Position numbers and translations under genes: made by a program
Notes under the pieces: generated by a model
Seen by the model: the letters and a program-made list of their open reading frames with translations, nothing else
What the model was told of the DNA's origin: nothing
Databases searched by the model: none
Origin: Salvelinus alpinus
Lineage: Eukaryota; Chordata; Actinopteri; Salmoniformes; Salmonidae
Length of the DNA stretch: 64,000 nucleotides
Assembly (NCBI RefSeq): GCF_045679555.1
Contig: NC_092093.1
Location: forward strand, 65,173,575-65,237,574
Direction of reading: 5' to 3'
Part shown: piece by piece, positions 29,701 to 35,057 of the stretch
Layout: each line of letters starts with the position of its first letter
Position numbering within the stretch: the first letter of the stretch is position 1

Positions 29701-32700
29701 TATAACAAGTCAAAACAGGCATAATATGTTCAGTTCCCCAGTATAGGATCAATGTCTATAGAGCCAAGACTGTCTTTTTCAGGTAAAAAGTGTTGTGGAG
29801 TGGTGTAGTTTACTGTGTTTACTGACACTTTGAGTAAGGTTGACTTGACATAAGAGAGATAGAAAAGGAGAGAGAGAGCTGAGAGAGAATGTGAAGAGAT
29901 AGAGGTAGATAGCGAGAGAGTGCCCTCTGGTGGTAGACTTGGGTACTCTCCGAAAGAAAGGATTTGAAGAGCAAAAGGAAGGAAGAGTGTGAAAGAGGGT
30001 GCAAAGAGAGAGAGAGAGAGAGAGAGCGAGAAACAAAGAAAGAAAGAAAGAGATATGTAAAAAGAGAGAAATGGAAAGAGAGTGAGAGAGCGAGCGACAG
30101 AAGCAGAATTCTGCAAAAATATACTTTGTGTACAAGCAGAGCAGAATTAGGACTATACGCTAGTTATCAAAAAATAGTTGTTCAATTCTACAACCACCTG
30201 AAAGGAAGCGATGCATACACACTGTTCACAAATACAAACAGACCCCACAGAGCCCCAGGACAGCAACACAATTAGACCCAACCAAATCATGAGAAAACAA
30301 AAAGATAACAATGACACTGGAAAGAATCAACCACAAAAAAACTGAGCAAATTGGAATGCTATCTGGCCCTTAACAGAGAGTACACAGTGGCAGAATATCT
30401 GACCACCGTGACACCCAAAACAAAGAAAATCCTTGATTATGTACAGACTCAGTGAGCATAGCCTTGTTATTGAGAAAGGTCGCCATAGGCAGACCTGGCT
30501 CTCAACAGAAGACAGGATATGTGACCACTGTCCACAAAATGAGTTGCAAACTGAGCTGCACTTCCTAACCTCCTGACAATGTTTGACCATATTAGAGAAA
30601 CACATTTTCCACAGATCACACAGACCCACAAAGAATTTGAAAACAAATCAAATATTGATAAACTCCCATAGCTGTTAGGCGAAATATTGCAATGTGCAAT
30701 CACTGTAGCATGATTTGTGGCCCATTGCCATGAGAAAAGGTCAACTAGTGGAGAACAAACACCATTATAAATACCACCTATATTTATCTGTCTATTTATC
30801 TTCCCCCACTATTCATACTACTACTTTCACATTGCTAAAACACTTTACATAGCTGATAATATAACACTTGAAATAACACTGAGTGTAACTCACAGGCCTG
30901 TGGTAGTGCTAACAGAGAGAGAGGAGTGTAACTCACAGGCCTGTGGTAGTGCTAACAGAGAGAGAGGAGTGTAACTCACAGGCGTGTGGTAGTGCTAACA
31001 GAGAGAGATAGGAGAGTAACTCACAGGCGTGTGGTAGTGCTAACAGAGAGAGAGGAGTGTAACTCACAGGCGTGTGGTAGTGCTAACAGAGAGATAGGAG
31101 AGTAACTCACAGGCCTGTGGTAGTGCTAACAGAGAGAGAGGAGTGTAACTCACAGGCGTGTGGTAGTGCTAACAGAGAGAGAGGAGTGTAACTCACAGGC
31201 CTGTGGTAGTGCTAACAGAGAGAGAGGAGTGTAACTCACAGGCGTGTGGTAGTGCTAACAGAGAGAGAGGAGTGTAACTCACAGGCCTGTGGTAGTGCTA
31301 ACAGAGAGAGATAGGAGAGTAACTCACAGGCCTGTGGTAGTGCTAACAGAGAGAGAGGAGTGTAACTCACAGGCGTGTGGTCGTGCTAACAGAGAGATAG
31401 GAGAGTAACTCACAGGCCTGTGGTAGTGCTAACAGAGAGATAGGAGAGTAACTCACAGGCGTGTGGTAGTGCTAACAGAGAGAGAGGAGTGTAACTCACA
31501 GGCGTGTGGTAGTGCTAACAGAGAGATAGGAGAGTAACTCACAGGCGTGTGGTAGTGCTAACAGAGAGATAGGAGTGTAACTCACAGGCGTGTGGTAGTG
31601 CTAACAGAGAGAGAGGAGTGTAACTCACAGGCGTGTGGTAGTGCTAACAGAGAGATAGGAGAGTAACTCACAGGCGTGTGGTAGTGCTAACAGAGAGAGA
31701 GGAGTGTAACTCACAGGCGTGTGGTAGTGCTAACAGAGAGAGAGGAGAGTAACTCACAGGCGTGTGGTAGTGCTAACAGAGAGATAGGAGAGTAACTCAC
31801 AGGCGTGTGGTAGTGCTAACAGAGAGAGAGGAGTGTAACTCACAGGCCTGTGGTAGTGCTAACAGAGAGAGAGGAGTGTAACTCACAGGCCTGTGGTAGT
31901 GCTAACAGAGAGAGAGGAGTGTAACTCACAGGCGTGTGGTAGTGCTAACAGAGAGAGATAGGAGAGTAACTCACAGGCCTGTGGTAGTGCTAACAGAGAG
32001 AGAGGAGTGTAACTCACAGGCGTGTGGTCGTGCTAACAGAGAGATAGGAGAGTAACTCACAGGCCTGTGGTAGTGCTAACAGAGAGAGAGGAGTGTAACT
32101 CACAGGCGTGTGGTAGTGCTAACAGAGAGATAGGAGAGTAACTCACAGGCCTGTGGTAGTGCTAACAGAGAGAGAGGAGTGTAACTCACAGGCGTGTGGT
32201 AGTGCTAACAGAGAGATAGGAGAGTAACTCACAGGCGTGTGGTAGTGCTAACAGAGAGATAGGAGAGTAACTCACAGGCCTGTGGTAGTGCTAACAGAGA
32301 GAGAGGAGTGTAACTCACAGGCCTGTGGTAGTGCTAACAGAGAGAGAGGAGTGTAACTCACAGGCGTGTGGTAGTGCTAACAGAGAGAGAGGAGTGTAAC
32401 TCACAGGTCTGTGGTAGTGCTAACAGAGAGAGAGGAGTGTAACTCACAGGCCTGTGGTAGTGCTAACAGAGAGAGAGGAGTGTAACTCACAGGCGTGTGG
32501 TAGTGCTAACAGAGAGAGAGGAGTGTAACTCACAGGCCTGTGGTAGTGCTAACAGAGAGAGAGGAGTGTAACTCACAGGCGTGTGGTCGTGCTAACAGAG
32601 AGATAGGAGAGTAACTCACAGGCGTGTGGTAGTGCTAACAGAGAGATAGGAGTGTAACTCACAGGCGTGTGGTAGTGCTAACAGAGAGATAGGAGTGTAA

Positions 32701-35057: not shown

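Follow-up and report, generated by a model that had tools for sequence, protein, structure and literature searches.

Minisatellites that carry the splice signals of a neighbouring exon have already been described, and the array that we report here in the complement gene c8g has to be read beside them. The one in IFI6 (6-16), associated with Turri et al. in 1995, reportedly has a repeat of about 12 nt. In the excerpts of PMC4526556, two of its downstream repeat units are described as serving as donors, whereas the excerpts of PMC3618361 and of PMC2572611 go no further than a citation of it. The best measured analogue of the c8g array is the human ABCA7 VNTR, a 25-bp unit repeated in intron 18 that includes the exon 18 donor, with 23.7 units in the reference and alleles of 837 and 9711 bp in one tested individual (excerpts of PMC5954066). 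According to the same excerpts, retention of one unit leads to a stop, a longer VNTR goes along with more skipping of exon 19 and less expression, the retained-unit isoform itself is independent of length, and this donor VNTR is a risk factor in human disease (PMC5954066). In amphioxus, 'mirages' in Adh3 and in the globin genes BflGb6 and BflGb9 are minisatellite-like, span the exon-intron boundary on the donor or the acceptor side, carry splice signals in many units and reportedly leave regular splicing undisturbed; splice-boundary minisatellites have been suggested there as a route to new introns (excerpts of PMC3087553). Finally, in rainbow trout irak3, 15-17 nt of exon 5 are repeated beside that exon in intron 4 (excerpts of PMC6763605). 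The excerpts of three further papers were of less help, since that of PMC2206037 makes no mention of mirages or minisatellites, that of PMC2688266 contains nothing on exon-edge repeats, and that of PMC2386828 contains nothing relevant to them.

The c8g array is a large member of this known kind, found in a window (the whole stretch of 64,000 nucleotides of Salvelinus alpinus DNA that was analysed) whose preliminary description had overlooked all four precedents, ABCA7, IFI6, the amphioxus mirages and trout irak3. As far as these are described in the excerpts, c8g shares with ABCA7 a tandem repeat that lies directly at an exon end, contains the donor and gives a stop when a unit is retained, but the gene and the lineage differ, and the ABCA7 unit has 25 bp and starts with the donor GT, whereas that of c8g measures 43-45 bp and includes 28 exon nt as well as a signal resembling an acceptor. 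With IFI6 it has in common that a transcript is offered several donor sites by a minisatellite, except that the downstream donors are reported to be used in IFI6 and that the later donors tested in c8g (2 to 8) are predicted to lead to a stop. For BflGb6 the amphioxus excerpts give two haplotypes, one with 6 units and one with 3, of 150-160 bp each, and for Adh3 units of 10-72 bp, whereas c8g, a complement gene of a vertebrate, has 82 units, and trout irak3, although also a salmonid case in which an exon edge is repeated, concerns the acceptor side and only four copies (PMC6763605). What is new in c8g is the copy number in a complement gene, the acceptor-donor pair in each unit and the recurrence of arrays at different splice sites of both c8g copies. 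With its dozens of identical donors, the locus puts donor choice by the spliceosome to an extreme natural test.

The gene model on which this comparison rests comprises seven exons on the minus strand, at 34878..35057 (exon 1, from the ATG), 34444..34589 (exon 2), 29391..29461 (exon 3), 28861..28968 (exon 4), 28497..28601 (exon 5), 28357..28392 (exon 6) and 26785..26804 (last coding exon, with the stop codon), which splice into an intact frame of 221 amino acids for complement C8 gamma, a lipocalin. The predicted product is a Pfam lipocalin, its best solved relatives in the PDB are C8 gamma chains (residues 30-216 match one of them), and its best relative in the protein database, O. mykiss C8 gamma P0001, is 98% identical over the whole length, so that homology to C8 gamma extends over most of the chain. 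The exon 2/3 junction (...STTTRL|NHQCWEIL, phase 2) is identical in P0001, a database protein known by its protein sequence alone, and the end of exon 2 taken as the reference point in the preliminary description is upheld by this junction, by the other C8 gamma homologues and by the intact seven-exon frame. Among 19 aligned database C8G proteins, seven salmonid/pike-like rows (P0001-P0007) read TRLNHQCWEIL at the junction and the remaining 12 read TRHNHQCWEI or something near it. The structure predicted for O. mykiss C8 gamma (pTM 0.64, mean pLDDT 71) would place the junction L109|N110 in a turn between strands 100-109 and 112-122. As for the other salmonid entries, the O. nerka isoform X2 (P0007) shows an in-frame absence of the 36 amino acids of exon 4, and the Salvelinus sp. 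IW2-2015 model P0005 includes a translation of the beginning of intron 1 that is identical to the window, together with ACELLSYLSVSTTTRLNHQC, which is one array unit read as a coding exon from a CACAG. P0005, from which the true exon 2 is absent, is probably an artefact of prediction; its sequence shows that array sequence also exists in the Salvelinus sp. assembly from which it was predicted. On the acceptor side of exon 2, TRF finds an (AC/TG)79 microsatellite (34595..34752, no strand assigned) that ends 5 nt before the exon.

On the other side of exon 2, TRF reports a single array with a period of 43 that covers 30881-34471 in 83.0 copies (95% matches) and has a score of 6182, far beyond chance. 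When it is cut on the minus strand after each CCT preceding a donor, what lies behind exon 2 (30881..34443, minus strand) resolves into 82 units, of 43 bp in 70 cases and 45 bp in 12, followed by a terminal donor with 13 nt, and this array accounts for 71.5% of the 4982 bp of intron 2. There are thus 83 donors including exon 2's own (GTGAGT, 34438..34443, minus strand), all of which read GTGAGT apart from one GTGATT at 34049..34054 (minus strand), in good agreement with the initial count of about 82 units multiplying the 5' splice site of c8g. The repeated unit is composed of 28 nt from the end of exon 2 (CTCTCTCTGTTAGCACTACCACACGCCT, 34444-34471), 13 nt from the start of the intron (GTGAGTTACACTC) and two more bases. 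The array had been said to start exactly at the exon 2/intron 2 border, of which it remains true that the exon edge is repeated, but the start of the unit lies 28 nt within the exon, and its end takes in the 13 bases with which the intron opens. It spans an authentic exon-intron boundary and the splice signals are kept in the units, as in a splice-boundary minisatellite.

The units are closely similar (mean pairwise difference 3.9%) and fall into 14 distinct types, with point variants in six columns, four of which are common to at least six units, and one CT length variant. The two forms of the exon end noticed at the outset, CGCCT and GGCCT, correspond to column 39, which is C in 51 units and G in 31. 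Neighbouring units are no more alike than expected (adjacent difference 1.95, compared with 1.93 after shuffling), and the similarity is somewhat greater at a distance of two units (difference 1.60, with 26 of 3000 shuffles as low). A weak alternation of unit types along the array is possible and not more than that, because 240 of 3000 shuffles reach a value as low over the 12 lags examined. The array contains only the letters A, C, G and T, without an ambiguous base, and a search of the protein database with its open frame of 79 amino acids returned two candidates, none at E <= 0.01.

The first donor keeps the coding frame, and each later donor tested (2 to 8) leads to the same stop codon, CTG TGA, as had been read from the sequence at the start. 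U1 had also been said to prefer strong GTRAGT sites. By its duplex energy the array donor has no particular strength, owing to mismatches with U1 at exon positions -1 and -2: the value is -5.5 kcal/mol versus -14.0 for the consensus, and the other five c8g donors range from -4.2 to -13.2. What the preliminary description overlooked is that every unit also contains an acceptor signal, that is, a pyrimidine tract and TTAG placed 15 nt ahead of the donor. Both TTAG and CTGTTAGCAC occur in 82 of 82 units, and the 20 nt before the array AG are 80-90% pyrimidine across the 82 units versus 55-90% at the six true c8g acceptors, four of which the array exceeds. The 15 nt between TTAG and the donor are in frame and without a stop, and would encode LTTTR or LTTTG. 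Since a unit carries both an acceptor signal and a donor, each is also a would-be in-frame 15-nt microexon at the predicted beta-hairpin turn, exemplified in the first unit by 34401..34415 (minus strand), which follows CTCTCTGTTAG and precedes GTGAGT; judged by its letters, such a unit would qualify as a microexon cassette, a short in-frame exon flanked by acceptor and donor. The G variant of the exon end creates a second AG (CACAG) in 31 of the 82 units.

Whether the intactness of the donors says anything about selection depends on where the variants fall. With 10 notional critical columns of 43, the chance that all four point variants common to at least six units miss these columns is P about 0.33, which provides no evidence of selection on the donors, and their intactness across units therefore needs none. 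Of the earlier statement that all units stay donor-competent, the part that stands is that identical donors compete, with 82 of 83 intact, and selection is not needed to account for it.

A comparison with the duplicate locus, which had been proposed as a check on the array, was informative in an additional way. A second c8g on contig C10, flanked by copies of the same neighbour genes, is a pseudogene, with two stops in the exon 1 match, an exon 2 split by an insertion, an exon 2 donor changed to GGGACT, an exon 3 that is mostly missing and an exon 5 without a match. There is no exon 2 array at this copy, where about 24 nt after the donor resemble, by eye, the start of a unit; of the two c8g copies found, only one thus has the exon 2 array. 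However, the C10 copy contains two splice-boundary minisatellites of its own, which had escaped the preliminary description. At the exon 3 donor (L003 8628-9013), AATG|GTAAGAGTCC occurs seven times, once every 50-53 bp, and at the exon 4 acceptor (L003 9287-9843), TAG|GTRGCAGA occurs sixteen times, once every 35 bp. With the exon 2 array, the two c8g copies thus carry three arrays of this kind, each at a different splice site.

In our opinion, the c8g array is quite probably a splice-boundary minisatellite, that is, a 'mirage' or donor VNTR, which came from a tandem duplication of the exon edge and is close to neutral, with the first donor mainly used and the leakage decayed. The duplication would have occurred after the two c8g copies parted, and unequal exchange would have made the array grow. 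Capture of the exon edge had been suggested from the outset, and its capture by tandem duplication is borne out by the 28 exon nt and 13 intron nt in each unit and by the absence of the array from the duplicate locus. Exon definition would make the first donor the main one, and a minor share of transcripts might take one of the next few donors, gain the stop codon and be decayed, which would leave the array nearly neutral. A preference for the intron-proximal one among equal donors would predict a heavier use of the later copies and speaks against this explanation.

Alternatively, the length of the array could tune C8 gamma output, with selection keeping the donors intact, since more donors would mean more unproductive splicing or more skipping of the downstream exon and long alleles would express less. 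The immediate stop given by each of donors 2 to 8 and the 82 intact donors of 83 are in favour of this, and in ABCA7 exon 19 skipping and reduced expression accompany a longer VNTR, but one-unit retention in ABCA7 is itself independent of length (excerpts of PMC5954066). Moreover, donor conservation in c8g is no more than homogenisation predicts (the P of about 0.33 above), the units differ by so little, with only six variable point columns, and arrays of the same kind are also present in the dead duplicate, so that we regard a regulatory role as unlikely. That the array is an assembly artefact is barely credible. Long tandem arrays are error-prone and the exact unit number is unverified, but the 14 unit types follow each other without strict periodicity, no letter is ambiguous, the array sits in a contig of 87.8 Mb and array-unit sequence is contained in the Salvelinus sp. 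gene model P0005, whose contig has another length.

A more unusual reading is that the array is a bank of microexons, in which the TTAG and GTGAGT of one unit would add at least one in-frame LTTTR or LTTTG pentapeptide and lengthen the exon 2/3 hairpin of C8 gamma, CGCCT being joined to CACTACCACA(C/G)GCCT and then to exon 3. If this were true, a minisatellite in liver cells would yield graded length variants of a complement protein. Several features fit, including the acceptor motif without exception in the 82 units, a pyrimidine content above that of four of the six true acceptors, an insert that keeps the frame, a junction predicted to lie in a turn and the use of one array unit as a coding exon in P0005, albeit via another AG. 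On the other hand, from a donor to the TTAG of the next unit there are only 28 nt of intron (71 nt to the unit after), and exons of 15 nt are hard to define without special enhancers. The LTTTR insert is found in none of the 19 aligned database C8G proteins, which are proteins and not RNA evidence, and P0005, lacking the true exon 2, looks like a prediction artefact. We consider this reading very improbable and retain the nearly neutral splice-boundary minisatellite.

Splice-boundary minisatellites recur in this genome. A small case is present in the window itself, at the donor of msrb exon 3 (CAG|GTAACC), where TRF and BLAST reveal a two-copy 43-bp duplication (38825..38907, minus strand), and BLAST finds one match to this donor region in the msrb copy on C10. 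The acceptor side of the last msrb exon lies 6 nt from a (CA)72.5 microsatellite (38283-38427). Beyond the window, Sushi exons were sampled by taking 50 of the 150 listed matches (the top 30 and 20 of the next 25, the five skipped being three with frames over 300 amino acids and two without), of which seven were dropped for open frames over 300 amino acids. This left 43 exons and 86 edges to be scanned, not all of them independent because several are neighbouring gene copies. Two of the 43 have their donor inside an array containing the exon end and the donor, with repeats of 93 bp x 5.0 (L082, C29:9462900-9465800) and 67 bp x 1.9 (L076, C4:12313300-12316200), and no acceptor array of this kind was found among the 43. 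Among 20 trypsin donors, hand-picked among the listed ones of 179 matches and several of them at match ends that are not exon ends, none has a donor minisatellite, and one lies within a microsatellite, the trypsin-domain exon match ending at a (GT)47 tract (L095, C5:98650215-98650815).

That exon edges are hot spots for arrays is an idea that these counts do not support. Neither minisatellites (8 of 86 Sushi edges versus 122 of 688 displaced positions) nor microsatellites (6 of 86 versus 47 of 688) are commoner close to the edges, and a crude genome-wide count of donor triplets, in which large arrays weigh heavily because overlapping matches are included, gives no excess (7135 and 6687 versus 8082 and 8782 for the reversed pattern). 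Nevertheless, as arrays recur in c8g, its duplicate, msrb and two of 43 Sushi exons, the birth, turnover and cost of splice-boundary minisatellites become measurable. Elsewhere in the window, the open frames at 2577-3353 and 36395-36766 (both minus strand) are presumably Tc1-type transposase, and in a neighbouring lipocalin gene the acceptor side of exon 5 is 7 nt away from an array of 19-bp period (24605-24794), which on C10 (17364231-17365895) measures about 1.66 kb.
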